A stretch of 30,685 nucleotides of DNA from a virus. Below the pieces are notes generated by a model. That model searched no databases. It worked only from the letters and a program-made list of their open reading frames with translations, and had not been told where the DNA came from. This document shows positions 394 to 27,037 of the stretch, one piece after another (position 1 is the first letter of the stretch; each line of letters begins with the position of its first letter). Location: the IMG/VR virus record IMGVR_UViG_3300033146_001114, positions 1 to 30,685 of that record. The stretch is one strand, 5' to 3'. The translations under genes were made by a program, and so were the position numbers.

Positions 394-680
394 CTAGAGA
401 ACAAGCAAAAGAAAGAAATTTTAAAATATTTAGACTAAGAGGTATAATCTCTTTATTGCCTACACTTATTCCAGAGGATGTGTATAAAGAGATGTTTTAT
501 GATAAAGAAGACATAGAAACTATTTGTAAAAATATAAAAATAGCATTAAATAAAGTAAAAAAGATTGAATATATATGTGAAGATTGTGGCGGAACAGGAA
601 AAGTAAGTAGGAGTAAAAGTGTTCTCCTTTGCGACAAATGTGGACGCTATGGAGAACTCTATAGAGTAAAGAATAAATAA
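390..680 (+). CDS. Small zinc-ribbon protein (96 aa)
   Basis: A 96-residue protein whose C-terminal third carries two CxxC pairs: C63/C66 (in CEDCGGTGKV) and C81/C84 (in CDKCG). The spacing and the CGGTG context match a DnaJ-type or rubredoxin-like zinc ribbon, so one bound zinc is expected. The first 60 residues are basic and helical without a recognised domain. Such small phage zinc-ribbon proteins often bind nucleic acid or protein partners, but the role here is unknown. The gene overlaps both neighbours by 1-4 bases and belongs to the early operon. Confidence 0.6.
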   Translation: MTREQAKERNFKIFRLRGIISLLPTLIPEDVYKEMFYDKEDIETICKNIKIALNKVKKIEYICEDCGGTGKVSRSKSVLLCDKCGRYGELYRVKNK

Positions 681-1444
681 TGCAGTTAAGAAAATGGAAC
701 AATAGAGAGGTTATATTTGAACTAGAATGTAATTCAATTACTAAGCTATTAGAAGGTGCTATCAAAGAAAAAGTAAATTTAAGCAGTGTTAATTTAATTA
801 ATGCTGATTTAAGGAGTATTAATTTAAGCGGTATTAATTTAAGTAGTGCTATTTTAATTAATGTTAATTTGACTAATGCTAATTTAACTAATGCTATTTT
901 AGTCAATGCTGATTTAAGGGGTAGTGATTTAACTAATGCCAATTTAAGTAATAGTGATTTAAAAAATGTTGATTTAATTAATGCTAATTTAAGTAATAGC
1001 AATTTAACTAATACTGATTTAAGGAATAGTGATTTAAGAAATGCTATTTTAATCAATGCTGATTTAAGAAATAGCAATTTAATTAATGCTAATTTAAATG
1101 ATGCTATTTTAACTAATGCTAATTTAAGTGGTAGTGATTTAAGAAACATTGATTTAACTAATGCTAATTTAAGAAATGCTATTTTAAAGAATACTACTTT
1201 AATCAAAGCTGATTTAGGTAATGTTGTAGGAAATATGGGAGAAATAAAAACTATGCAGTTAGAGAAGTATCAAATAGTGTTTACCAAAGATGTCCTTCAA
1301 ATAGGGTGTAAGCAACATACTATCGAAGAATGGAGAAATTTCAGAGACTCACAAATCAAAGCTATGGATACAGATGCATTAATCTGGTGGAAACATTGGA
1401 AAGAATTTATTTTTAAAGCTATAGAATTAACAAAGGATAAGTAA
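680..1444 (+). CDS. Pentapeptide-repeat protein with phage-type C-terminal domain
   Basis: 254 residues. After a short N-terminal segment (RKWNNREVIFELE, typical of phage pentapeptide proteins) there are about 29-30 consecutive pentapeptide repeats of the A(D/N)LxN type, residues ~32-180. These should fold as a right-handed quadrilateral beta-helix of about seven coils. Residues ~186-254 are non-repetitive and contain IGCKQHTIEEW and ALIWWKHWKEF, a tail seen on many phage pentapeptide proteins. Known family members include DNA mimics that block gyrase, but most phage copies are uncharacterised, so the function is open. The DNA is a 15-base tandem array (about 775-1219) with little codon variation. 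Its start overlaps the upstream stop by one base. Confidence 0.85.
   Translation: MQLRKWNNREVIFELECNSITKLLEGAIKEKVNLSSVNLINADLRSINLSGINLSSAILINVNLTNANLTNAILVNADLRGSDLTNANLSNSDLKNVDLINANLSNSNLTNTDLRNSDLRNAILINADLRNSNLINANLNDAILTNANLSGSDLRNIDLTNANLRNAILKNTTLIKADLGNVVGNMGEIKTMQLEKYQIVFTKDVLQIGCKQHTIEEWRNFRDSQIKAMDTDALIWWKHWKEFIFKAIELTKDK
775..1219 (+). repeat. 15-bp tandem repeats encoding pentapeptides
   Basis: About thirty imperfect copies of a 15-base unit resembling AATGCTAATTTAAGT run in frame through the pentapeptide-repeat gene. Units near each other are nearly identical, so slippage or recombination between units could change coil number. The array is protein-coding, not a CRISPR: there are no unique spacers. 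Confidence 0.85.
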
Positions 1445-1854
1445 TGAAGATACAACTAATTGACGAAAAATGTATGCCCAAATATAAAAATATTTACTCT
1501 ATCTGTATGGACTGTAGAGCAAGAACAGATATAGAATGGGTATGGGAAAAAGGTTTAAAAGTAGCATATATACCTCTTGGATTTAAAGTTAAAGTGCCAA
1601 GAGGATATATATTAAAATTATATGCTAAAGAACTGTTTGATAATACTCATATTATATCGATATCTGATTCTACAAGTGTTTTTGGTGAAGCAGATAATGA
1701 GGAAATAACAATTAAGCTTATTCATCATAGCATATCTATTGATACACCTCCTAATATTAAAAAGCATGATATAGTATGTCAAATGACATTAATTAGAAAT
1801 CCTATTATTTTATTAGACACAGTAGATCATATACTAGAGTATTTTTATGAGTAA
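1444..1854 (+). CDS. dUTPase-like (trimeric fold) protein, degenerate motifs
   Basis: 136 residues that align along the trimeric dUTP pyrophosphatase fold. The opening QLIDEKCMPKY and CMDCRAR (D23) correspond to motif 1; IPLGFKVKVPRGYILKLYAKE covers the central strands and motif 2; SDSTSVFGEADNEEI (D75) corresponds to motif 3; KHDIVCQMTLI (107-116) corresponds to motif 4. The PRSG signature of motif 2 is replaced (YAKE), and the glycine-rich motif 5 that closes on the phosphates is missing. It may therefore hydrolyse a related dNTP (dCTP or dUTP), or be a non-catalytic binder. Family assignment is from motif order; activity is inference. The operon also holds a ThyA-family enzyme and a MazG-like pyrophosphatase, consistent with pyrimidine nucleotide metabolism. 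The gene shares 1 base with the upstream gene and 8 with the helicase. Confidence 0.65.
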   Translation: MKIQLIDEKCMPKYKNIYSICMDCRARTDIEWVWEKGLKVAYIPLGFKVKVPRGYILKLYAKELFDNTHIISISDSTSVFGEADNEEITIKLIHHSISIDTPPNIKKHDIVCQMTLIRNPIILLDTVDHILEYFYE

Positions 1855-3102
1855 TCTAAATAACTATAAATTATATAAACACCAAGAAGAAGTGGTAGAG
1901 GAGGGAATGCGCATTTTAAGCAAGTACAACATGTTATACTTAGCTTTAGAAATGCGTTACTGACTGGCAAAACTCCTATCTCTCTAACTGTATTAAGTAG
2001 ACAAAATAAGTTTCAATCAATCTTATTTATTACAACTAAATCTGCTTTAAAAGGTATTAAATCTACTTTATTAGATTTTAACATCGATCTACCTAATTTA
2101 GAATTAGTTAATTATGAAAGCTTACATAAATTAAAAAATAGGATTTTTGATACTATAATCCTAGATGAAGCCAATGTTAAAATTAGTTCTTTTCCTAAAC
2201 CTTCTAAAACTTATATAGAAGTAAGGAAAAGAATTAAACCTAAAACACAAATTATCTGGTTATCAGGTACACCTCAAATAGAGTCTTCTGCTAAGATGTT
2301 TCATCAACTAAGCTTAAGCCCAAAACACAGCTTTTATTATTACAAAGATTTTTATGAATGGTATAATGGAACAGAGCATTATAAAAATAGAAAAAAATAT
2401 AGACCTGGTTATGGTATTCAAGGGATATTTAAGTATCATGGAGGATCAAGACCTGCTATAGATTACTCTTGTGTTATAAATTTTAATCATAAATTTGATC
2501 CTATTCTCATTAAACGAGTTAATAAAGATCATAATATGCTTCCTATTGTAATTTTAAGGTATGTAGAAACACCAGAGTTTATAAAAGAGTATATTTACTC
2601 TATTAAAACAAAAAACATCGTAGAGAGTAAATATGGTACCTTTATAGCTGACGGTGGTGCAAGTAAGTTATCTAAGTGCCATCAATTAAGTGGTGGCACT
2701 TGTATAGATGTTAACGACTTAAGAGTAGAGCTAAGCTGTTTCAAAGCACAATCAGTGTATAATAAACATAAAGATACAAAAACTGCTATCTTTTATAAAT
2801 ATAAAGCTGAGCTAGAACTGTTAAAAAAATACTTCAATGAATCTGATCTGTATCAGATAGATTCAATGGTAACTGGAACAGATATGTCTCATTATGAAGA
2901 TATGGCTATATATAGTCTTACTTTTTCTGGATCTAATTACACTCAATGTATAAGTAGATTATCTAATACAAACAGAAAAAAAAGACCTAATATATATATC
3001 TATATAGCTACAGATATAGACCAAGCTATATACAACACAGTTTCCATGAAAAAAGATATGAATACAAAATTTTTACTAAAGGAGAAAAATGGAAGAAAGT
3101 AA
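1847..3102 (+). pseudogene. SF2 DEAD-like DNA helicase, frame broken in Walker A
   Basis: Encodes a superfamily 2 helicase of about 418 residues if the frame is restored. The N-terminal piece (from ATG 1847) has a Q-motif-like YKLYKHQEEVV and runs to LYLALEMR, then hits TGA at 1961-1963. The rest continues in the -1 frame: TGKT (Walker A, from 1963), ITTKSAL (motif Ia), ILDEAN (motif II, DEAN box), LSGTP (motif III), and QCISRLSNTNRKK (motif VI with the arginine fingers) near the C-terminus. The break is a 5-base insertion (duplicated ACTG plus T) between Arg and Thr of the Walker A motif. Everything after it stays open for 1.1 kb, so the lesion is recent or a sequence error. The likely role is unwinding or annealing during phage DNA replication or recombination. 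The gene overlaps the VRR-NUC nuclease by 14 bases. An internal ATG at 2296 could give only the C-terminal half. Confidence 0.8.
1955..1968 (+). other. Frameshift site in helicase gene
   Basis: The bases read CGT TAC TGA CTG GC. Removing five bases gives CGT ACT GGC, restoring the expected EMRTGKT Walker A. An ACTG-ACTG tandem duplication is visible at 1959-1966, suggesting slippage or an assembly error. I see no slippery heptamer that would support programmed -1 frameshifting. Confidence 0.75.
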
Positions 3103-3352
3103 AGTAGTTCAATCAATCCGTAAATATCTTAAATCTAAAAAATATATTACTATTAATTTTCAAGTTGTTACACCATCAGGTTGTCCTGATTTGGTAGCTA
3201 TTGATACAAATGGTAATCATATATATTTTGAGATTAAAGATAAAGGAGGAAGAGTTAGTCCTATACAAAAGTATAGGATAGAACAACTAAGAAAACAACA
3301 GTGTGAAGTATATGTTGTTTATTCATTAACTGAACTAAAGGAGATTATATGA
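3089..3352 (+). CDS. VRR-NUC domain nuclease
   Basis: 87 residues forming a complete VRR-NUC fold, a compact PD-(D/E)XK nuclease. Visible motifs are SGCPDLVAI (the PD aspartate, around residues 31-39), YFEIKDKGG (the E-x-K pair, ~48-56) and SPIQKYRIEQLRKQ (the conserved Q helix). Free-standing phage VRR-NUC proteins are thought to act as structure-selective nucleases, resolving branched DNA or processing replication intermediates. It overlaps the end of the helicase gene and begins after an AAAGGAG ribosome site, so helicase and nuclease are probably made together. Its stop overlaps the next start (ATGA, 3349). Confidence 0.85.
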   Translation: MEESKVVQSIRKYLKSKKYITINFQVVTPSGCPDLVAIDTNGNHIYFEIKDKGGRVSPIQKYRIEQLRKQQCEVYVVYSLTELKEII

Positions 3353-4116
3353 ATATAAACGAACTATATCGCAACCTTGGATTAGAAATCTTACACAAGG
3401 GTGTCGATAAAGAAAGTAGAAACGGTAAAACCAGATCATTATTTGGAACAACCATCAAATATGACATGGGTAAACATGGTTTTCCATTATTATCTATGCG
3501 TAAAATTAATTACAGAGCAGCTATAGGCGAATTTAAAAGCTTCCTTGAAGATTGCAAAAGCGAAAAAGAATTTACAAACAATGAGTGTCCTTACTGGAAA
3601 CTATGGGCAGAAAAAAATGGTAGTCTTAAGCTCGATTATTCACCTAGAAAGCAACTGGATTATGTTATTAACTTATTAAAAACAGATCCAAATTCAAGAA
3701 GAATTATAATTGATTTATGGAATCCAGAAAATAGAGGTAAACTCAGTTTAGATCCTTGTCACACACAATATCAATTCAACGTAATAGGAAAAAAGCTAAA
3801 CACGATCTGGACACAAAGATCTGTTGACTATGCTATTGGAGCTCCTTATGATTTCCTACTAGCAGGTTGTTATGTATTGCTATTATGCAAAGAAGCAAAC
3901 TTAGAACCAGGTGTTATAACGTTTAATTTTGGTGATACTCATTTATATAAAGAACATATAGAAAGATTCAAAACTTTAATGAAAAGAGATACACGTTCAT
4001 TATGTATTGAAGCTGTGTGTTTAGATAAAAAAGCTGATTTTAAAATAAGTAGTATTTCATTTGATGAAGATTGCTATCTTTATCAGGAATCAATAAATTT
4101 TTTACTAAAGGAGTAA
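3349..4116 (+). CDS. ThyA-family enzyme, predicted dCMP methylase/hydroxymethylase
   Basis: A 255-residue thymidylate-synthase-family protein, near normal length. Conserved features: RNGKTRSLFG (folate/phosphate loop), catalytic-base Glu E61 (IGEF), W83 in YWKLWAEKNG, SRR (117-119), nucleophile C137 in DPCHTQYQF, QRSVD (156-160, phosphate site) and GDTHLYKEH (195-203). The key oddity is D168 in GAPYDF, at the position of E. coli Asn177 (GLPFNI). In known enzymes Asn there selects dUMP, while Asp is found in T4 dCMP hydroxymethylase and in engineered dCMP-using mutants. The C-terminus (ends FLLKE) also lacks the PHPxIKxxxAV tail that closes over the thymidylate synthase active site. I therefore infer methylene transfer to dCMP, giving 5-hydroxymethyl- or 5-methyl-dCMP. 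Ordinary dUMP methylation cannot be excluded without an assay. It starts after AAAGGAGATTAT. Confidence 0.85.
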   Translation: MNINELYRNLGLEILHKGVDKESRNGKTRSLFGTTIKYDMGKHGFPLLSMRKINYRAAIGEFKSFLEDCKSEKEFTNNECPYWKLWAEKNGSLKLDYSPRKQLDYVINLLKTDPNSRRIIIDLWNPENRGKLSLDPCHTQYQFNVIGKKLNTIWTQRSVDYAIGAPYDFLLAGCYVLLLCKEANLEPGVITFNFGDTHLYKEHIERFKTLMKRDTRSLCIEAVCLDKKADFKISSISFDEDCYLYQESINFLLKE

Positions 4117-4325: not shown

Positions 4326-4647
4326 AGATAATGTGTATGTATCAAAAGGTGGTAGCTTACCTAAGAGACCAAGTTTTGATAAAGAGCTACTTAGGTGCCT
4401 AGTAAAAGGACAAATCATATCTAAAGAAGCAGCTAAAATGCTTCCTAAATCAATCAGTAAAACTGCTTGTAACATAACTGATCTTATTGAACCAGAAGTT
4501 GGGATAACTATAGAAGAAATAGATGGTTTAACCGATCTATTAATTATAGTAAGAAGTCCTCATTGTGTAGAAGGTAAAAAATTTAGGTTAAATAAATTTA
4601 GACCTATAGTAAAAACAAAGGAGTTAGAAATATGGACAAGAGTATAG
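4297..4647 (+). CDS. Hypothetical protein, faintly dihydrofolate reductase-like
   Basis: 116 residues. The opening MIVSAILLT, then GGSLPKRPSFDKELL, KGQIISKEAAKMLPKSI and a closing LEIWTRV follow the order of elements in dihydrofolate reductase (first strand, LPW loop, helix B, second strand and helix C, final strand). However, the protein is about 40 residues short and lacks the LPW tryptophan and the GG cofactor loop. The position two genes after a ThyA-family enzyme is where a folate enzyme would make sense. I treat the DHFR idea as weak, and a plain hypothetical call is safer. Start: ATG 4297 with ACGTAGGAATAAAA upstream. Confidence 0.45.
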   Translation: MIVSAILLTKDNVYVSKGGSLPKRPSFDKELLRCLVKGQIISKEAAKMLPKSISKTACNITDLIEPEVGITIEEIDGLTDLLIIVRSPHCVEGKKFRLNKFRPIVKTKELEIWTRV

Positions 4648-4952
4648 ATGAACTTGTTGTGCTGATTGATAAATGGCACAAGGATAGAAAAATTACTATT
4701 AACGGTAATGTGCAAACACAAACTATAAAATTAATTGAAGAGTTCGGTGAACTAGGAGAAGCTATAGTAAAAAAAGACCATGCAGGTGTTAAAGACAGTC
4801 TTGGTGATATGTTCGTAGTTATGGTGGCAATAGCTAAGCTATCTAACACAAACATGAATGAATGTATAGATATAGCTTATAATGAAATTAAAGACCGTAC
4901 AGGCTATTTAAATAGCTTAGGTAATTTTATAAAGGACGACAATGAAAGTTAA
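4632..4952 (+). CDS. MazG-like all-alpha nucleoside triphosphate pyrophosphohydrolase
   Basis: 106 residues, the usual size for a single-domain MazG/dCTPase-like protein. The metal-binding signature EExxE is at residues 36-40 (EEFGE, followed by E43), and the second acidic pair is at D55 and D59 (DSLGD) on the next helix. NEIKDRTGYLN and a terminal Lys/Asp tail match phage MazG proteins. It should cleave (d)NTPs to NMP plus pyrophosphate using magnesium. In this operon the likely role is emptying a dNTP pool, for example dCTP or dUTP, to feed the nearby ThyA-family enzyme. Substrate is not readable from sequence. The start follows AAGGAGTTAGAAAT and overlaps the previous gene by 16 bases. Confidence 0.85.
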   Translation: MDKSIDELVVLIDKWHKDRKITINGNVQTQTIKLIEEFGELGEAIVKKDHAGVKDSLGDMFVVMVAIAKLSNTNMNECIDIAYNEIKDRTGYLNSLGNFIKDDNES

Positions 4953-5037
4953 AATAAGAACTTGGAAAGAAATGAAAAAAAAGTATTTTGATTACACAAT
5001 CACTTCAAATATGATTAAGGAGTATATAAATGACTAG
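4942..5037 (+). CDS. Very small basic ORF (31 aa)
   Basis: ATG 4942 to TAG 5035-5037 gives 31 residues beginning MKVKIRTWKEMKKK. It fills the only gap between the MazG-like gene and the DUF3310 gene, has AAAGGACG upstream, and overlaps both neighbours by about 10 and 8 bases. That spacing is the sole reason to call it. It could instead be a leader that couples translation. Confidence 0.4.
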   Translation: MKVKIRTWKEMKKKYFDYTITSNMIKEYIND

Positions 5038-5428
5038 AAAAGAAAGAATAGAAACAATAAACTATTTGCTAGATAACGATCTTTTAAGCGTACAAGTAGC
5101 TATAGAAGCAACAAAGGAGTTGAAAGAACTGAAAGAATCAGAACTTAAGGAAAGTAAAGAAGAAGTTAAGACTGAAGTTAAGGAAGATGAAATAAGTCCT
5201 TCGCATTATCCAAAGATAAATGGAGTAGAAATGTTTGACATCTTTAAAAATATAGCAGAAAGTTATAGCCACTATGAAGGATATCTGCATTTAACTGCTT
5301 TAAAGTATCTTGTTAGATTTCACAAAAAAGATGATAAGTTAATAAATCTAAAAAAGTGTAGAAAATTTTTAGATAAATTAATAGGAGAACTGGATGGATC
5401 CAATACACTTAATAAAAAGACTCTATGA
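5030..5428 (+). CDS. DUF3310 protein, T7 gp1.7 (nucleotide kinase)-like domain
   Basis: 132 residues. After a helical N-terminus and a Lys/Glu-rich linker (~28-54) comes a DUF3310 domain: PSHY at 57-60, MFDIFKNIAESYSHYEGYLHLTALKYLVRF, then LINLKKCRKFLDKLI. This matches the C-terminal half of T7 gp1.7 in motif order (PSHY, GY, LKY-R, DL-KA). T7 gp1.7 phosphorylates dGMP and dTMP without a P-loop. If the activity is shared, this protein could supply the dNMP to dNDP step for nucleotides made by the upstream genes; that is inference. AAGGAG lies upstream of ATG 5030. Confidence 0.7.
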   Translation: MTRKERIETINYLLDNDLLSVQVAIEATKELKELKESELKESKEEVKTEVKEDEISPSHYPKINGVEMFDIFKNIAESYSHYEGYLHLTALKYLVRFHKKDDKLINLKKCRKFLDKLIGELDGSNTLNKKTL

Positions 5429-11529: not shown

Positions 11530-14500
11530 CTATTTCGGTGTTGTCATCGGATTTAGCAGTTCCACTATATCTATCATACTTTTTGTTGCTGAATAAGCAA
11601 AAGTAACATCAATTACTTTTGTTCCAGTAACACCTCTTAGTGGTGAGTTATAAGGACTCATACTACCTGTACTTTTAAATACATTATCTATTGGTTGAAT
11701 AAAATCATTATCATAAAACCATTGATCCTCCTTGGTCACCTCTTCATCATAGGTAGCTTTAGTACCTAACATTATCATCGCAGATATAGCAGTTAATCTA
11801 ACCTTATTTTCAGAAGAAGCAAACATTAACATTTTAGGATAATTAAGTAGATACTTAGTGAATGGACTAAATAGATCAAAAACTCCCGGAATAACACCCA
11901 TATTATTATAAGTTGGAAAAGCAAGAAGAACTTCTTGTATTGCCAACTGTTTACCTATTTTATTTTTTCTAGATAAGTACATCATAACTTTAGGTAGTAC
12001 TTCTGTCATATCATAAACAGTACCTATTTTCTTACCCCATTCAGTAGAAGGATCTGCTAATAATGTTTTAAACTTATTTCCAGCCTCTTTATCTTTAAAT
12101 ATATGATTTAACGATGAAATCAAAGCATTCTCTTGCATACTTCCAGTTGAATAAGCATCAGATCTAATTGTAGAAAAGATACCAGACAAATAAACATCAT
12201 GTAGTTCATGCTTTTCTAAAGCAGCTAAAGCTTTTACTCGACCTTCTTCTGTGGTAAGATTAGTTGCTTCAGTTAATAATTTTTTATATTCTTTCATAAG
12301 TTTTCTAGCTTTTAATGAATGTTCTTTCATTTTATATATATCAGATCCATTAACCATATAAGTAATCATGCTTGAACTAAAAGAGTTTATATAACTTGCT
12401 GGACTATAATTAAGTAATACTCTTTTTAATTGTTCTACATATTTAATTAATAATCTTAGTAGTGGAGCTACTACATCTCCAACAGCAGTACCAACAATTT
12501 TACCCATTGCTTCATTACTAAAATCTACACCTTTCGTTCCTACAAAGTATTTATCCCAAGTCTTTTTGTAATAGTGTTTACCATTAAGACTTGTGTTAGC
12601 AACAGAATCATTTGTAACACTATAGTGTTCCTGTAAATCTATAGGAAGTTTATCAAAAACAGCTTTAGGTATTAACACTCCAGCATCTACTAATGTCTGT
12701 TGTGTCTTATGTACTAACCTACCTGCTGTGTCTTGATAGTTTTTTAAATGAGCATTTTTTATTATCTGTGTTGATATGCTAGCATCTACATTACTTGAAT
12801 CAAGATTCAGATTTGTTGGATTAAAGGATATAACATTTTTATCATTATCTTTAAAAGAATAAAGACCTTTCATTTCATTAGTTACATCGTAAGTCATTAG
12901 TTGTCCTGACTCTGCTGCAAATATATGACTTTCTATATCCTGTGTTACTAAGTACATAGTTTTATTGTCTAAGATCACAGTTCCTAATAAACGATCTGGT
13001 TCTGGTTTATCTAAAGTAAGATAACCTCTTTTAGTACTGGAGTTAGCATTTACTTCTATATTTGTCCCCAGTAAAGTATTAGCATTAGAATGTTGTTTAT
13101 CTAACATTGTTAAAAGATCAGCTGCTACTTGTCTTAAGTTGGTATCTGGATCTGTTGCTTTTGAATTACGTGCTTTTTCGTAAAAAGCTTTTATTCTCTT
13201 TATATTACTAGCAGATCCTGCTTTTTTAATAGCGTGCATATCTTTGATCACGCTTATAAAATTATCATACATTGCTACCTGTATATTTTTATCTGCAGTT
13301 AATTTTTGTGTCCATTTTTTAGCCATAGCTTCAAGACTACTTGTTTTTTCTAAAGTATTTATTTCTTTCATAAAATCATCAAAAGCACTTAGTTTATTTG
13401 CTTCTTTAAAAATGTTTTTAATCTCTTTTGTTAATTTAACATCTTTAATATTAATTGCCCTAGAGAAACTTCCAGAAGAATTAGACTCTAAGAATTCTTT
13501 TATAAATTTATGTGTAGCACCTAAAGCAGCTAAAGTTCCAACATCTTTATCAAAAGAACCTTCATAGTCTGATTGTTTAACAACCTTTTGTAACTCTTTA
13601 GCTAAAGCAATACTTTGCTCCATCATAGTAGCTTCATGCTGTCTTTTAAAACCAAGAACAGATTCAATTGCTTCTCTTGTTGGTGTTAGTGTAAATATAT
13701 CAGAAAAACCAATAGTAGATAATTTACTTTCAACTAACTTTTTGGTTTTATTGTTATTGTCAGTAATTGATTTAGCAATTCCTTTCATTGAAGATTTAAA
13801 CTTTTCTACTTTTTGTCCATTCATAAAAGCAAGTATTTCTGGATTAGTATTTAAAGTAGCAGAGTATCTTTTTCTTATATCATTAAGTTGATTTATAGCT
13901 GTTTCATATCCCTTAGATACTAAGTACTTATTAAAATCATCAGGAGTTATCATCTCAACACCATCAAATTTTATTTTTTGAATATGTTGTGAGAGATCAT
14001 AAGTCTTTGTATCTGTACCTTTTGCAAAAATAGTTGCAAAGTTTTCTTGATTAAGCATAAGCTCTTCATTACCTATTAGTATTTCAAAGAACTGTGATAA
14101 AGATTCTCCTTCTATTGCAGTTTCTAATTTTATACTCATCTTTCCACTGTCTGACATTTCATTTATTAAACTAAGTAATGTTTTATCATTTTCAATTTTT
14201 GAAGTATCAAATAATAAATCTAATTTATCTTTAGTTACTACGTGTACAATTTCATGAACCAATTCTCTATGAGCATCAGGAGTAAATTTTTCATGACCTA
14301 TCTTAACGGTAAAAGCTATATTATCCCCACTACCTGTTTTGATAGCCACACTTTGTTTGGTTCCTTTTTTAAATGACTTTATGCGTGCACCGTGAAAGTT
14401 AGATTCTATACCATGTTTTATTTTAGTCATAAAAGAACCAAGCTTAGTAGACATTTTTTGCATTCTACCTAAAGTTAATACTCTATCACTTGTTAGTATA

Positions 14501-17500
14501 TCTTCTGAAAGTTTTTTAGGGGATGTTTCTTTTAAAGTAACTTCTCCATTACTAGCTTTAGCACCATTACTTTCCATACCATCAGATACATTGTATATTT
14601 CAGTATCTGGTGTAATACCATTTTTCTTTTTATTCTGTTTAATATTCTCAGATAGAACTTCAAGTCTTTTTTGAAAAGCTGTTAATCCCTTTGAATCACC
14701 TATCATCATTGTATTAAGTTGATCAGCGATAAGAGCTGTTTCTAGTTCAGGGGGTGGTAACCTACCTCCATTTGCCTTGAGATACTTTTGTTCTGCTATT
14801 TTTTTAGCTATTGCTGTTTTAGCTTCAATATCAATTTCATTTATACCGATACCATTTTCAGTCATCTCTACTAGTGACGTGTATGCAGCAAGTATATTTT
14901 CTCCGATATTTACTTCGTTTATAAGATGAGCTATAGTCTCATTTGCTATTCGTGTTCTTTCTTGTAAACTATCTATTCCAACCAAAGCATCTTGAATATT
15001 ATAGTATCCATCAGCAATAGCTTTTGAGGCTATAATTGCGTCTTGTGATATAGTGAATATTGGTTGAAAAGTAACTTGTAAGGTTGGTCCTTTATAATTG
15101 ATATGTGATTCGTTATTTGCATAACCTTTAACTGTTATTAATTTTATATTCTTACCGTTAGCTACTGGGATCTCAGGTATGATATTATTTAAAATAGAAA
15201 TAGATGTCATATCTTCTTTAAAGATATTATGTTTAGATAGAATACTTATTATACCTTCTACTGAAGTAGGTCCATTAAACTTTCTTTTCATTTCTAATAT
15301 AAGATCATGATCAACTTTTTCTCCAAGTTCCTTTATTGCTTTTTCTAAAACTCCTGCAATTTCACTTTCAGGAATAGTTTTCTTTAGATAATTACTATAA
15401 AAATTCTCTGTAGCTATTTTAACTAAATCATTTATCGCTCTATCATAGTGTCGTTTCATATTATAGTTATTTCCGTCACTATCTACAAAATTATAATTAG
15501 CCTCTTCTATTTTTGCAAAAGCAGTTTTATTTTTTTGTGAAAACCTAGAAGATGCATATTTAACTAATTGTTCTATTTCATTTTCTGATAATAAAAACTC
15601 TGGTTCAAAGGTTCCTCTTTTCTTAGCTTTACCTGTAGTATCAAATATTTTATATAAAGCAGAGAAAGGTTTATTTCCCTTTTTCATCATAGCATCAGCT
15701 ATTTTACTTATATCAGCAGTAACGCTTTTTGTTAACGAACCAGTTTTTAGCAAAGCATTTATATTATCAATAAGTTCTTTTCTTATTTCAACTTCTGTTT
15801 TTCCACTTGTATTTTCAACTGTAATATCTTCTAATTCTTTTAGAATATCTTTAACTATGTTTTTATTTTCTATTTTTCTTAATAAATCATCAAATATTTT
15901 AAATGTAGCTAAATCAGTCGTTATAGTAGCCTGTAGCGCATCTTGTAAAGGAGCTGGCATTTCACCCTTCTCAAAATAACTTTCAAGCATAGCCTTGCTG
16001 TATGCTTCTGTAACAGCCCCTAGTGATGCTTCGTAGTTCTTAGGTATAAACAAAGTTTTAGCTAACTTTCTACTTATGCCTAAAATATCACCTAATTCAG
16101 TATATGGATCAGGAATAGTTATATCAATTTTCCCTCCAATACCTACCCTTGTATCTTTAAAACCTAAAGCAGATTTAACTAATGTATATCCAGAGTTAGA
16201 TGAATCTATCTCTTTAAACACATGTACTTTTTCCCCTTTAGAATTTCTTATCGCTACCATCTGTTCTATAGAACCTACAGTTATAATACCTTCAGAATCA
16301 AACTTTAAATAAGGAGGAAGTTTTTTTGTTAACTCTTTAAATTTATTATCCATTTTAGAAAGATCAATGTGAAGTTGATCCATGCTACCTGTCTCATGAT
16401 TAGCTGTACGATTATATATTTCTGGATCTAAACGATATTTACCATTTTCTTCAATCATGAAAGCATCTTGTGTATATTTGAACAAAAGATCAATTGCTTC
16501 TTCTGGTGTTTTAACACCCAAGTCTTTTAATACTTTTGTTGCATCTGCATGAATACCTTCAACTTTTATACCAAGGTTAGCAAGTACTGCTCTTTTTGCA
16601 CTTTCTAAATTATGACTTTTTTTACTCCAGTCTAATTTTACTTCTGATTTGTTTGTATTAGAAACAACTCTAAACAAAGTTGAACTTAATGGATTTGTAT
16701 TACCTGAGTATATAACTCTAGTTAAATCTAATATCTCTACATCGAAGGTAAAATCAGCTCCTGCATAGTCTCCCATCATTCTATGGATATCTTCTACCTC
16801 TCTAACTTTACTCATTATTTTTTTTCTAATAATTTCTTTAAAATTAGGAGATGAAGAATTATATATCCTTTCAGTCATGTGGGGATCAATGTCACCCATT
16901 ATTTTACCAAACTCCAGCATTACTTTTGTCTTGCCTTCCATTCCATCTACTAATGCTTTTAAGTAGTTAATTAACTTTGTGCCTTCTTCTGTAAAGTTTA
17001 CTTTTGTTTCAGCAAGAACTTTAGCCATTATATTTGTATCTTCATCATTAACAAATGATTTATTAGTTATGTATCCACTTTCTCCAGTGAAGTTAGCCCC
17101 ATACTTTTCGCTATCATATCCTTTCTTTAATATGTTGTTAACAAAAGTAGATCTCTCTTCAAAAGTTGCACCAAATAAATTTCTTAAATCTTGTACCCAT
17201 TGTTGTAATTCTCTTTTGCTTGTAGGAGTACCATCTTCCATTGCTGCATTAGAGTCTTCTGCTCTAAATAAAAGGTCTTGAGTTGTATCTGCTTTACCAA
17301 CTAAGTCATTAGCAAGAGCCTGTACAAAGTTATTTAATGAGCTAGTATCTGTCTTACCATTTATACCCATTATGTTAATGGCTCCATCTATAACCTGTTT
17401 AGTAAGATCTTTACCTAAATAACCATCTACTGATTCAGGTAAGTTTATTAGTGTCATTCCAAGAGAAGCTTCTAAAGCATTTTTAAATTCATCCTTGAGT

Positions 17501-19038
17501 CCTAGTATTTTAAAACCTTCACCTTTTTCTAATTCTTGTGTTTCAAAGAAAGCTTTATAAGTTCTAGAGTTAGCATCATTATCTTTAAAAGTTGCATCTT
17601 GTAATCCAATAAACATATTAGTTATACCACTAGATATATTATCATTATTTCTAACTGCTTCGTATAGTAGTTTAAAATCCTTTAGATTGATATCTATAGT
17701 TCCATCCAATTTACTGAGATCACTAAATTTTTTAGCCACTAACATTTGTTGAAAGATAGATCTTTCTCTCTTTATACTAATTTCATTATCTGGTTTTTCA
17801 TAACCTGATTCTTCAATAATGTTTTTTATTTTTGGATTAATTTCTGTTGAACCACCTCTAGTTTCTTTTGAACTTGGAACGACTTTACCGTTTTCATCTA
17901 TCTTAACAGTATAACTAGAAGATTTAGTATAAGCTGACGATCCTTCATCTTCTGCCATCTTTGCTAGAAGTTCCATCACAGATACAGTTGATTTATCTAA
18001 ACCAGTAAGAACTGGATTGTTTCCAAATTTAAGATCATACATTCCTTTTTTTATGTTTGAATCTTTTAAGTCTAATACTTTTGCTCCATTAGATAAAATT
18101 TTTCCTTTAGCCATTCCAAAAGATTCTGATAGTATATATATTTCACCTGTTGCTTCATCTATAATTGCTGCATGTTCAATATCTAAGTCACCACTGTTAA
18201 GGGCTTCTCTCATTTCCTCTATAGTTTTAAAATCATTTTCAGTTATTCTATTAAATTCTTCTAATGATACAAAACCATTTTCATTAAGTTTTATATCAAC
18301 ATCTTTAAGACCACCAGTATTAAAAGTTGAAATTGCATCTGAATCTAAATTCAATAATGTATGATTTCCCACGTTTGCTTGCTTTCTATAGTTTTTATTT
18401 GAAACACCTTTTTTAATAGACCAAGCAACACCACCAGCAGTTGCTCCAAATGCACCTTCAAATAAAGTATTTAATTTAAAGGCTTGATTAAAGTTTTCCC
18501 ATTTACGTTCATGATAAACTTTATCTTCATTTACACCTATTTCATTAATATCAGCAGCAGCTCCAGCAACTGATTGAAAAACTACATCTGCATTAAACTT
18601 TGTTAATTCCTTAAGTGTTTCTATTCTACGAGAAGCGTTTAGTAAAGCTCCAGTTGGTCTAGCTCCAATGCCAAAGCTTTTTAAAGCCATTGAACCAGCA
18701 GCAAGGGCTCCTCTAAAACCGAATGATAATGGTATTCCCTGAACCATTCCTCCAGCAAGCATATTAATATCACCTGTGGTTTCGTTTAATACTGGCCCTT
18801 CTTTTGTATGATCTAATCCAAAAGCCCCCATCATGTGTTTTGCATTATTTTCAGATCCACCTAACTTTAATAAAGGTAAAGCTAAACCTCTTCCAAAATC
18901 TCTTAATGCAGTATTTCTTGAGGCAGCTGGAATATTTAATGCTGCTGTATCTCTTATTTGTTTGTCTGCTATAAGTGCTTCATTCTCTATTCTAAAAGCA
19001 CGTTCAAGACTACTTTGTAGTGGATTATCAACTGCCAT
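11530..19038 (-). CDS. Giant internal virion (ejection) protein with HExxH metalloprotease motif
   Basis: 2502 residues, the last gene of the structural operon. The N-terminus has Gly/Ala-rich hydrophobic helices (about 92-119 and 190-212), suited to membrane insertion during DNA ejection. A zinc-protease motif HEIVH lies at residues 1595-1599 in DAHRELVHEIVHVVTKDKL. E1652 (SQFFEILIGNEEL) is placed like the third metal ligand in phage polyvalent-protein metallopeptidases. A hydrophobic segment lies near 2175-2225, and the rest is helical and Lys/Glu-rich. I infer a capsid-internal protein injected with the DNA, similar in role to T7 gp16 but nearly twice as long. N4 virion RNA polymerase is comparable in size, but I found no T7-type polymerase motifs. 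It starts 11 bases after the 752-aa gene with AAGGAAAAAAA upstream. Confidence 0.75.
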   Translation of the reverse strand: MAVDNPLQSSLERAFRIENEALIADKQIRDTAALNIPAASRNTALRDFGRGLALPLLKLGGSENNAKHMMGAFGLDHTKEGPVLNETTGDINMLAGGMVQGIPLSFGFRGALAAGSMALKSFGIGARPTGALLNASRRIETLKELTKFNADVVFQSVAGAAADINEIGVNEDKVYHERKWENFNQAFKLNTLFEGAFGATAGGVAWSIKKGVSNKNYRKQANVGNHTLLNLDSDAISTFNTGGLKDVDIKLNENGFVSLEEFNRITENDFKTIEEMREALNSGDLDIEHAAIIDEATGEIYILSESFGMAKGKILSNGAKVLDLKDSNIKKGMYDLKFGNNPVLTGLDKSTVSVMELLAKMAEDEGSSAYTKSSSYTVKIDENGKVVPSSKETRGGSTEINPKIKNIIEESGYEKPDNEISIKRERSIFQQMLVAKKFSDLSKLDGTIDINLKDFKLLYEAVRNNDNISSGITNMFIGLQDATFKDNDANSRTYKAFFETQELEKGEGFKILGLKDEFKNALEASLGMTLINLPESVDGYLGKDLTKQVIDGAINIMGINGKTDTSSLNNFVQALANDLVGKADTTQDLLFRAEDSNAAMEDGTPTSKRELQQWVQDLRNLFGATFEERSTFVNNILKKGYDSEKYGANFTGESGYITNKSFVNDEDTNIMAKVLAETKVNFTEEGTKLINYLKALVDGMEGKTKVMLEFGKIMGDIDPHMTERIYNSSSPNFKEIIRKKIMSKVREVEDIHRMMGDYAGADFTFDVEILDLTRVIYSGNTNPLSSTLFRVVSNTNKSEVKLDWSKKSHNLESAKRAVLANLGIKVEGIHADATKVLKDLGVKTPEEAIDLLFKYTQDAFMIEENGKYRLDPEIYNRTANHETGSMDQLHIDLSKMDNKFKELTKKLPPYLKFDSEGIITVGSIEQMVAIRNSKGEKVHVFKEIDSSNSGYTLVKSALGFKDTRVGIGGKIDITIPDPYTELGDILGISRKLAKTLFIPKNYEASLGAVTEAYSKAMLESYFEKGEMPAPLQDALQATITTDLATFKIFDDLLRKIENKNIVKDILKELEDITVENTSGKTEVEIRKELIDNINALLKTGSLTKSVTADISKIADAMMKKGNKPFSALYKIFDTTGKAKKRGTFEPEFLLSENEIEQLVKYASSRFSQKNKTAFAKIEEANYNFVDSDGNNYNMKRHYDRAINDLVKIATENFYSNYLKKTIPESEIAGVLEKAIKELGEKVDHDLILEMKRKFNGPTSVEGIISILSKHNIFKEDMTSISILNNIIPEIPVANGKNIKLITVKGYANNESHINYKGPTLQVTFQPIFTISQDAIIASKAIADGYYNIQDALVGIDSLQERTRIANETIAHLINEVNIGENILAAYTSLVEMTENGIGINEIDIEAKTAIAKKIAEQKYLKANGGRLPPPELETALIADQLNTMMIGDSKGLTAFQKRLEVLSENIKQNKKKNGITPDTEIYNVSDGMESNGAKASNGEVTLKETSPKKLSEDILTSDRVLTLGRMQKMSTKLGSFMTKIKHGIESNFHGARIKSFKKGTKQSVAIKTGSGDNIAFTVKIGHEKFTPDAHRELVHEIVHVVTKDKLDLLFDTSKIENDKTLLSLINEMSDSGKMSIKLETAIEGESLSQFFEILIGNEELMLNQENFATIFAKGTDTKTYDLSQHIQKIKFDGVEMITPDDFNKYLVSKGYETAINQLNDIRKRYSATLNTNPEILAFMNGQKVEKFKSSMKGIAKSITDNNNKTKKLVESKLSTIGFSDIFTLTPTREAIESVLGFKRQHEATMMEQSIALAKELQKVVKQSDYEGSFDKDVGTLAALGATHKFIKEFLESNSSGSFSRAINIKDVKLTKEIKNIFKEANKLSAFDDFMKEINTLEKTSSLEAMAKKWTQKLTADKNIQVAMYDNFISVIKDMHAIKKAGSASNIKRIKAFYEKARNSKATDPDTNLRQVAADLLTMLDKQHSNANTLLGTNIEVNANSSTKRGYLTLDKPEPDRLLGTVILDNKTMYLVTQDIESHIFAAESGQLMTYDVTNEMKGLYSFKDNDKNVISFNPTNLNLDSSNVDASISTQIIKNAHLKNYQDTAGRLVHKTQQTLVDAGVLIPKAVFDKLPIDLQEHYSVTNDSVANTSLNGKHYYKKTWDKYFVGTKGVDFSNEAMGKIVGTAVGDVVAPLLRLLIKYVEQLKRVLLNYSPASYINSFSSSMITYMVNGSDIYKMKEHSLKARKLMKEYKKLLTEATNLTTEEGRVKALAALEKHELHDVYLSGIFSTIRSDAYSTGSMQENALISSLNHIFKDKEAGNKFKTLLADPSTEWGKKIGTVYDMTEVLPKVMMYLSRKNKIGKQLAIQEVLLAFPTYNNMGVIPGVFDLFSPFTKYLLNYPKMLMFASSENKVRLTAISAMIMLGTKATYDEEVTKEDQWFYDNDFIQPIDNVFKSTGSMSPYNSPLRGVTGTKVIDVTFAYSATKSMIDIVELLNPMTTPK

Positions 19039-24721: not shown

Positions 24722-24960
24722 CCTGAAATTTTACCATTTGTTATTGTTTGAAATAAATACTTATGAAGTATCTGTCTCGCCTTTAATTCATCTACAGTAT
24801 GTGTATTGTCTAAATTAGAATTTACTGATATTTCTATAATTCCTTTTTCAATAAAATCTTTCAATATTAACTCTTGAAATAAATCATTTTCAATAAGCTT
24901 AACCATCTTAGCAGCTTTATTTGCATCATTTTCTCTCTGGTGGTTTGCTATTTGGGCCAT
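24715..24960 (-). CDS. Small hypothetical protein after portal (81 aa)
   Basis: 81 residues, helical and charged (NANKAAKM-like opening: NDANKAAKMVKLIEND, then ARQILHKYLF). It overlaps the portal gene end by 35 bases, and its stop lies in the hairpin before the scaffold gene. No family recognised. AAAAGGAGCAACAC lies upstream of ATG 24960. Position suggests a minor head-assembly protein, but this is not proven. Confidence 0.55.
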   Translation of the reverse strand: MAQIANHQRENDANKAAKMVKLIENDLFQELILKDFIEKGIIEISVNSNLDNTHTVDELKARQILHKYLFQTITNGKISGL

Positions 24961-27037
24961 GTGTTGCTCCTTTTATTTTTGCATAGGCATCTGCATTTGT
25001 TTTAACTTCTTCTTGTCCTATCTTGGTAGCTTTTGCTAAGTTGTCAATATTTTTACCTTCAACATTAGGTTGGATATTCTGAGCATTCGCAATAGCTTTA
25101 ATCTCTTCAGATTTAGTTCTTGCCATTGCATTCGCAGCTAAAGCCTTATCTTTAAGTCCATCTGCTTTAACACTTTCTATTTCTGCATCTTGTAATTCTT
25201 GTTGTTTAGGATCTGGTTGAGGTACAAAGTTGTTGACTTCTCTTGCTATATCTGGTCTATCCATTGCATCTGCCATATCTGAGAATAGCATTCCCATTAC
25301 TTTAGGAGGTACAACATTAAGCTGTATAAGGTTTCCTGCTTGTTGCATCAACATATTCGTCTGTGCTATTTTAATTTCCTTTAGACCATCAGTTCCTACT
25401 TTCATTGATATATCATACTTAAGATCTTTCATATTAAACATGTCTTCAACTTCTTTTATGATTAACATCATAGCTTTCTCTTGTGTTTCAGGAGGTAGTT
25501 GATCTATACCCATTTCCATAGCTATTCTTTTAGTCTCTTTAACTTTTAATTCTGGAATATAAAGACCTGTTATTTTTTGTATTTCTTCATCATTTAAGTA
25601 TTCCATTGCCATACTTAACCACATGTAAAATATTTTACGAAGACCAGAAGTTACTGAAGTAGTCATATCAAGTAATCTAATTTGTGACTGACTCATCACT
25701 GCTGCAAAGTTACTCGAAGCAGTTTTCATTTCAGATCCTGGAATACCTTGCATCATTTTTGAAACGCCAGATAACCCTTCTGCTTGACTTTCTATAAGAT
25801 TTAAAGTATTATAAACAGAAGGTGGTAGTTGATTAAAAGAACCATCAGCAATTACAGAATTTATATTTTCATTAGTATTTAATTCAACTACTTTTTCTCC
25901 ATTTTGTAACCTTTGAAAATTGATAGTATCTAAAGCCCCTTTTCTTATAAACTTTATACCGTTGTTAGAATTTTCCATATTATCTATTATACCTCTAATT
26001 ATAGAAGTATAAAAATTTTGTTCATCTGATATCAACTCAGATAAACTATCTCCATATACTGAAAATTCTTTTTCAATTAGGGGTATACACACAAAAGGTA
26101 TATTTTTAAAAGGCAACTTATTTTTTTCTATTTTCATCAAAACACGATCGTCACCATATTTTGCAGTAACCGCCATAGCAGAAACGTTTACCCCATTATT
26201 ATCCAGATCTAATTCACCCCAATATTCGTTAAGCCTTACTTTTTTTCTGCTGTTCTCAGATGATTCAAAAGAATACTTGTTGTGTTGATGAGACTCTTCT
26301 TGAGGTCCTTCTGTTTTATCATCTTGCTGCTCAATCATTCTTTCTAATTTATCAACAGATTCTTTTGTGTATAAATGTTTTTGTTTACGTAGATCAGATA
26401 TTGTTGTAACATAGTCAAACGAAAAGAACTGTATCTCTTCAAATGAATCTGCGGTACAATCGAATACACAGTCTTCTAATCGAAGTGGTTTAGCTGTTGG
26501 TTTATTAGTTATTATTTCTTTTTTTATAATCTTTATTTTACCATCAGACATCTTTTCGATAATAGCACCTTTATTCTTTAATCTTTCTAAAAATTTAGGA
26601 GGTATACCGCCTGGTATAATCTCTTCTTTAGTATCTACTTGTTTTTCCCAACCTATTCTAAGGAAACAAGTACCTTCTTTAACTGCTAACCTGGAAATTG
26701 TTTTTACAAGTTTATTTGAGTTTGTTTCTTTAGCCCAAAAATGGTTAAGCACTTTACTATAAATAGGTGCCTTCACTGTGTCTTTATGAGTTAAGGGAAT
26801 TAAGTCCGCTATCTCGTGAGCTCCTAAAAAAGGTTTTGATAGATTAGAGATTAAACTTTCACCTTGTTTTTTTATGAGCTTCCAAATCATATTTGATTTG
26901 TTTTCATCAATATCTGTAGATATTTCGCCTTCATAGTCTTCTATCCATTTAGCGACTTTTGCCACCTGATTATTTCTTAAACTACTATTTCCATCTAAGT
27001 CATGTTCAATCATTTCTAATAAATCTTCGTTATTCAC
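24926..27037 (-). CDS. Portal protein (podovirus N4/P22-type)
   Basis: 703 residues, close to the N4 portal in length. The N-terminal region has the recurring portal pattern (WIEDYEGEISTDIDENKSNMIWKLIKKQ...). The central domain has a long beta-rich stretch and NENINSVIADGSFNQLPPSVY leading to the crown/stem helices (SQAEGLSGVSKMMQGIPGSEMKTASS, a motif seen in many podovirus portals). The C-terminus is a long helical, Gln/Ala/Lys-rich barrel-like tail (~600-703). It forms the dodecameric DNA-entry ring at the capsid vertex. It starts 2 bases after the 566-aa gene. Confidence 0.8.
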   Translation of the reverse strand: MNNEDLLEMIEHDLDGNSSLRNNQVAKVAKWIEDYEGEISTDIDENKSNMIWKLIKKQGESLISNLSKPFLGAHEIADLIPLTHKDTVKAPIYSKVLNHFWAKETNSNKLVKTISRLAVKEGTCFLRIGWEKQVDTKEEIIPGGIPPKFLERLKNKGAIIEKMSDGKIKIIKKEIITNKPTAKPLRLEDCVFDCTADSFEEIQFFSFDYVTTISDLRKQKHLYTKESVDKLERMIEQQDDKTEGPQEESHQHNKYSFESSENSRKKVRLNEYWGELDLDNNGVNVSAMAVTAKYGDDRVLMKIEKNKLPFKNIPFVCIPLIEKEFSVYGDSLSELISDEQNFYTSIIRGIIDNMENSNNGIKFIRKGALDTINFQRLQNGEKVVELNTNENINSVIADGSFNQLPPSVYNTLNLIESQAEGLSGVSKMMQGIPGSEMKTASSNFAAVMSQSQIRLLDMTTSVTSGLRKIFYMWLSMAMEYLNDEEIQKITGLYIPELKVKETKRIAMEMGIDQLPPETQEKAMMLIIKEVEDMFNMKDLKYDISMKVGTDGLKEIKIAQTNMLMQQAGNLIQLNVVPPKVMGMLFSDMADAMDRPDIAREVNNFVPQPDPKQQELQDAEIESVKADGLKDKALAANAMARTKSEEIKAIANAQNIQPNVEGKNIDNLAKATKIGQEEVKTNADAYAKIKGATHGPNSKPPERK

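Follow-up and report, generated by a model that had tools for sequence, protein, structure and literature searches.

A thymidylate synthase-family enzyme with aspartate at the pyrimidine-selecting site

A gene in the virus record analysed here (the window: the whole linear stretch of 30,685 bases, GC ∼30%) encodes a ThyA-family enzyme in which the residue that selects the pyrimidine is aspartate. The reading that we favour, with some reserve, is that it is a thymidylate synthase (TS)-type dCMP C5-methylase, making 5-methyl-dCMP for phage DNA in which cytosine would be largely 5-methylcytosine (5mC). The open reading frame (3349–4116, plus strand) is intact, with 255 codons from ATG to stop, and its product matched the Pfam family Thymidylat_synt (PF00303, E 3.8e-50) and the PHROG family phrog_160 (E 5.8e-57). 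Alignments bore out what the initial annotation had read from the sequence, namely that the catalytic Cys137 (codon 3757–3759, in SLDPCH; E. coli Cys146), Glu61, the motif Q156-R157-S158-V159-D160 and the motif G195-D-T-H-L-Y200 are preserved, and that G164-A-P-Y-D168-F takes the place of GLPFN177I in E. coli. Equivalents of E. coli Cys146, Glu58, Tyr94, Arg126/127/166, Ser167, Asp169, His207 and Tyr209 are all present in the window protein. Where TS has Asn177, which selects dUMP, stands Asp168 (codon 3850–3852), aligned with Asp179 of T4 gp42; these and the other codons given below are on the plus strand.

The window is organised with its early genes on the plus strand and those for head, portal and lysis functions on the minus strand. 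It is probably a fragment, because no match to a terminase or to DNA polymerase A was obtained among its proteins scanned. Megablast of positions 1–25000 revealed no near-identical phage in GenBank; the sole close relative of the phage that was found is a short viral contig whose portal (L113:3751–5859) is 74% identical to that of the window (24926–27037). A helicase-like gene (1838–3102, plus strand) is split over two frames near TGKT, the N-terminal part lying at 1838–1963 and the rest, stop to stop, at 1879–3102; this could reflect an assembly error, a frameshift or a broken gene. A pentapeptide-repeat protein of 254 residues (680–1444, plus strand) is encoded upstream in an operon-like run with the enzyme gene, and such a protein also occurs in the related phage ctXG1253 (L005:6113–6823). 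In the structural half, a frame of 2,502 residues (11530–19038, minus strand) had no Pfam or PHROG match.

The aspartate is conserved throughout a diverse clade

Because one aspartate on its own might be noise, relatives were gathered from a phage collection and from viral contigs. A scan with the single sequence gave just three weak loci for close relatives, so that an alignment scan was needed. Residues were counted in 106 proteins with Asp (43) or Asn (63) at the column of E. coli residue 177. In a maximum-likelihood tree of 66 rows, the window enzyme fell within a clade of 28 rows (support 100/100), every one of which has Asp; Asp168 was invariant in the 17 clade members that were aligned, and Asn177 was absent from the clade, which is very diverse. 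The sister of the window enzyme comes from contig L013 (43% identity, support 99/98), and the other members include those of Edwardsiella phage KF-1, Vibrio phage VPMS1, Pseudoalteromonas phage PH1, Dickeya phage Amaethon, two Manatee Spring podoviruses, Pelagibacter phage Kolga and metagenomic relatives. The second-shell position 180 shifts together with residue 177: Ser180 is found in 60 of the 63 Asn177 proteins but in none of the 43 Asp177 proteins, and the window protein has Leu171 there. Similarly, the residue before the catalytic Tyr is Asp in 30/43 Asp177 proteins and Val or Ile in 60/63 Asn177 proteins; in the window protein these residues are Asp96-Tyr97 (codons 3634–3639; Tyr97 is E. 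coli Tyr94). Since it is invariant across the clade and position 180 changes with it, Asp168 is a lineage trait, neither a chance substitution nor a sequencing slip.

The enzymes of the KF-1-type podoviruses (KF-1, VPMS1, PH1, Amaethon, ctXG1253 and ct1fd225) and Kolga, mostly annotated as thymidylate synthase, are 34–38% identical to that of the window over the alignment, and share with it Asp177, Leu143, an NTP pyrophosphohydrolase neighbour and the type of tail. They differ from it in having Cys before the catalytic Cys, where the window has Pro, and a longer loop after the catalytic Tyr (Tyr97 in the window). As for cellular homologues, 84,980 genomes yielded six loci. Their contigs are 26–150 kb long, five being titled as metagenome-assembled and one as an uncultured isolate bin; four of the genes were readable throughout, three with Asp and one (L112) with Asn.

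T4 gp42 and the enzymes of DLP4 and AXL1 all have Asp, but fall elsewhere on the tree on long branches. DLP4 and AXL1 are closely related to Xp12, a 5mC phage, and represent its lineage here, Xp12 itself being outside the tree; the window enzyme does not group with them. From the alignments and tree, the window clade would thus be a third lineage, distinct from both gp42 and the Xp12-type enzymes. On the best tree Asp at position 177 requires at least two changes, in keeping with the earlier proposal of an independent conversion of a thymidylate synthase; a single Asp clade was nevertheless not rejected (AU p 0.315), so such a conversion is a possible history.

Evidence for dCMP as the probable substrate

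Residue 177 decides the choice of pyrimidine, and N-to-D mutants of TS (L. casei N229D and E. coli N177D, in which Asn is changed to Asp alone on a TS framework) make 5-methyl-dCMP, according to work as cited in PMC8670742. Asp also occupies the selecting site in T4 gp42, MilA and BcmA (PMC5175136). In the MetaGPA study (eLife 2021), Asp177 marked those TS homologues whose contigs carried modified cytosine, and PRA-PH and dCMP deaminase co-occurred with TS homologues on such contigs; the selection used retains 5mC as well as hydroxymethylcytosine (PMC8670742). The Asp177 group described here resembles that of MetaGPA in the residue itself, in a PRA-PH-type pyrophosphohydrolase and in dCMP deaminase. 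MetaGPA, however, takes the Asp177 group as one, puts residue 147, where the window enzyme keeps His138, in second rank, and pairs it with a carbamoyltransferase (PMC8670742), which was absent from the 32 Asp177 records in our set.

Inference of dCMP use from Asp177 is partly published already, as a general rule. With the clade-wide Asp, these published data and the NTP pyrophosphohydrolase neighbourhood described below, the dependence of the enzyme on dCMP that the initial annotation had predicted is well supported, and the same evidence, with the N177D and MetaGPA data, supports modified cytosine in the phage DNA. The enzyme could instead be an ordinary dTMP synthase, its Asp being a neutral variant or one with dual specificity; indeed, the remaining catalytic residues and the fold are TS-like and a dUTPase-like gene lies nearby. 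This we consider very improbable, as Asn177 never occurs in so diverse a clade, position 180 co-varies, and mutagenesis shows residue 177 to be decisive (PMC5175136 and the work cited in PMC8670742).

The active site and tail are of the TS type

An AlphaFold2 model of the window protein (28 sequences, mean pLDDT 92.8, pTM 0.90) superposed through residues 4–255 on residues 1–264 of E. coli TS, with an rmsd of 1.3 Å over 248 residues, and matched Mycobacterium tuberculosis ThyA with a Z score of 33.6 (248 residues, rmsd 1.2 Å), as expected for a ThyA fold. A structure search with the model returned TS structures as the best matches, with closed TS ligand complexes at the top. Together with the tree, this upholds the view that the enzyme is more like TS than like T4 gp42.

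The initial annotation had considered the C-terminal closing tail to be missing, which proved wrong: 55 residues follow the final Tyr of the H-x-Y motif both in the window protein (Tyr200) and in E. coli ThyA (Tyr209). The tail aligns through to the last residue, and by its length and in the model it would lie as the TS closing tail does. A missing tail can therefore not be used as evidence for a hydroxymethylase. The tail sequence, INFLLKE (4093–4113, plus strand), is specific to the clade, the pattern I-x-F-x-L-K-E replacing IKAPVAI/V in the window protein and several relatives.

The alignments and model place a selecting Asp in a TS-type site that is intact. By analogy with N-to-D mutants of ordinary TS, the simplest prediction is that dCMP is methylated reductively. 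The window enzyme differs from those engineered proteins in being natural, in having accompanying changes at positions 180 and 93, and in its tail.

Marks of a hydroxymethylase are absent

T4 dCMP hydroxymethylase is marked by Asp at position −3 from the catalytic Cys, Ser at −2 from the catalytic Tyr and the lack of a tail, and the signature has been defined as Asp or Glu at the first position with Ser or Thr at the second (PMC6400193). In gp42, Asp145 activates the attacking water and D145N is dead, TS having Leu there; Ser94 holds water; and Val replaces the TS residue Trp83, which with Leu143 controls solvent access in TS (PMC6400193). The window enzyme shares with gp42 the ThyA family, the selecting Asp that recognises cytosine in T4 (Asp179) and the catalytic Cys, Glu and Tyr, but carries none of these marks: it has Leu134 at −3 (codon 3748–3750; E. 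coli Leu143, T4 Asp145), Leu95-Asp96-Tyr97 without Ser, Trp86 (codon 3604–3606; E. coli Trp83, T4 Val85) and a full tail, and gp42 is distant from it on the tree. As a control, Asp was found at −3 in T4 gp42 and in the known or annotated pyrimidine hydroxymethylases of SPO1, Bordetella phage CN1 and the ViI-like phage STP55, and also in the gp42-like proteins of Nebulous and L002.

The main rival to the 5-methyl-dCMP reading is that the enzyme is a dCMP hydroxymethylase, in which water adds to the methylene intermediate to give 5-hydroxymethyl-dCMP and, as in T4, hydroxymethylcytosine DNA. Asp177 is common to gp42, the record of one relative is annotated 'pyrimidine hmase', and the clade-typical Asp96, beside the catalytic Tyr and near the place where Ser94 holds water in T4, could hold or activate water, which counts against a methylase. 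Nevertheless we think hydroxymethylation unlikely: the signature is lacking, no carbamoyltransferase accompanies the Asp177 genes and some clade members encode dihydrofolate reductase (DHFR). DHFR recycles dihydrofolate and is required after methylation, not after hydroxymethylation. The initial annotation had not chosen between the two products; since the hydroxymethylase signature is absent, 5-methyl-dCMP is favoured over 5-hydroxymethyl-dCMP.

To our knowledge, no natural lineage other than the Xp12-type enzymes has been linked to 5mC. The enzymes of DLP4 and AXL1 share with the window enzyme Asp177 and an NTP pyrophosphohydrolase encoded next door, and the product is likely the same, but they differ in having Asn at −3, Phe at position 83, Pro at 147 and a long insertion, and in lying on a separate branch. 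Given Asn and Phe at these closure positions, Leu and Trp cannot be a general mark of methylation. The residue at −3 of the catalytic Cys offers a simple sequence rule, not a universal one, for telling which Asp177 proteins are predicted methylases and which are hydroxymethylases. Two Xp12-type Asp177 enzymes (L093:1767–2708 and L097:2623–3564) have Asn where gp42 needs Asp145; because D145N abolishes hydroxymethylation in T4, the 5mC of the Xp12 type may go back to a hydroxymethylase-like ancestor that lost its hydroxylating Asp.

The gene neighbourhood suggests a possible cytosine nucleotide pathway

Near the enzyme gene lies a gene for a MazG-type NTP pyrophosphohydrolase of 106 residues (4632–4952, plus strand; PF03819, 29.2 bits against a cut-off of 22), a candidate dCTPase that would supply dCMP. 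It is homologous to the pyrophosphohydrolase encoded beside the Asp177 gene in L013, as well as to the ones at the Asp177 loci L044, L045 and L002–L004, and matches the pairing with Asp177 described in MetaGPA. PRA-PH or MazG was found in 21/25 Asp177 contigs and 3/25 Asn177 contigs (p 4.9e-7, which is only a guide because related contigs are not independent); the Pfam models used were not derived from the loci compared, and the Asn177 contigs were mostly much longer. A weakly matching dUTPase-like protein (1444–1854, plus strand; phrog_135, E 2.6e-5; PDB dUTPase, E 0.037) may feed the dUMP pool. A DUF3310 protein (5030–5428, plus strand; PF11753, E 1.5e-9; PHROG 'nucleotide kinase' phrog_236, E 1.3e-15), which we take to be of the T7 gp1.7 type, might speculatively serve as a kinase for the modified dNMP.

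Matches to dCMP deaminase were present in 19/32 Asp177 records, the gene adjoining the Asp177 gene in several, and each Asp177 record examined had a single TS-family gene. DHFR was encoded in four clade members (L015, L020, L028 and L084), again with one TS gene apiece. Neither dCMP deaminase nor DHFR was matched among the window proteins scanned, from a record that looks incomplete. Among side observations, KF-1 ORF27 (L006:17611–18219) has a dCMP-deaminase-like domain fused to a dATP/dGTP diphosphohydrolase domain (PF18909), and this second domain stands alone at L013:1394–1687. VPMS1 MS_034 was considered as a diverged deaminase and rejected, having no similarity to KF-1 ORF27 and no deaminase match.

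The deaminase genes and the lack of a second TS gene raise the idea that 5-methyl-dCMP is made only to be deaminated to dTMP by a phage or host dCMP deaminase. Thymidylate would then come from the cytosine pool without dUMP, leaving the DNA unmodified, or with 5mC as an option dependent on the deaminase. We judge this improbable: no deaminase match came from VPMS1 or Kolga, whose genomes are complete, or from the window fragment, MetaGPA ties Asp177 to modified DNA (PMC8670742), and an enzyme with Asn would reach the same end from dUMP.

A proposed route to 5-methylcytosine DNA

In the favoured reading, dCMP C5-methylation for 5mC DNA, the pyrophosphohydrolase would probably convert dCTP to dCMP, which would provide substrate and at the same time reduce the amount of unmodified dCTP. 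Asp168 would recognise N3 and the 4-amino group of dCMP, Cys137 would attack C6, and methylene-tetrahydrofolate would donate the carbon. The TS-like closed site (Trp86, Leu134 and the full-length tail) is proposed to exclude water, so that the intermediate would be reduced by hydride from the folate, giving 5-methyl-dCMP and dihydrofolate. Kinases would phosphorylate 5-methyl-dCMP up to the triphosphate, from which the phage polymerase would incorporate 5-methylcytosine, yielding DNA that should resist many restriction enzymes. In the literature we found no virion DNA measurement or enzyme assay for any clade member, the sole lead being a published HhaI digest of VPMS1 DNA (PMC4870561). The VPMS1 genome has 148 HhaI sites, and by computation unmodified DNA would give no fragment greater than 1,824 bp.

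What is new here is that a clade has been defined whose site and tail are of the TS type, that the hydroxymethylase signature fails in it, and that the link to pyrophosphohydrolases has been quantified. Isolates of the clade exist and the proposal is therefore open to direct testing. If it is true, a widespread clade mostly annotated as thymidylate synthase would be nature's equivalent of the engineered dCMP methylase, and restriction-resistant DNA rich in 5-methylcytosine would be expected in phages of Vibrio, Edwardsiella, Dickeya, Pseudoalteromonas and Pelagibacter.
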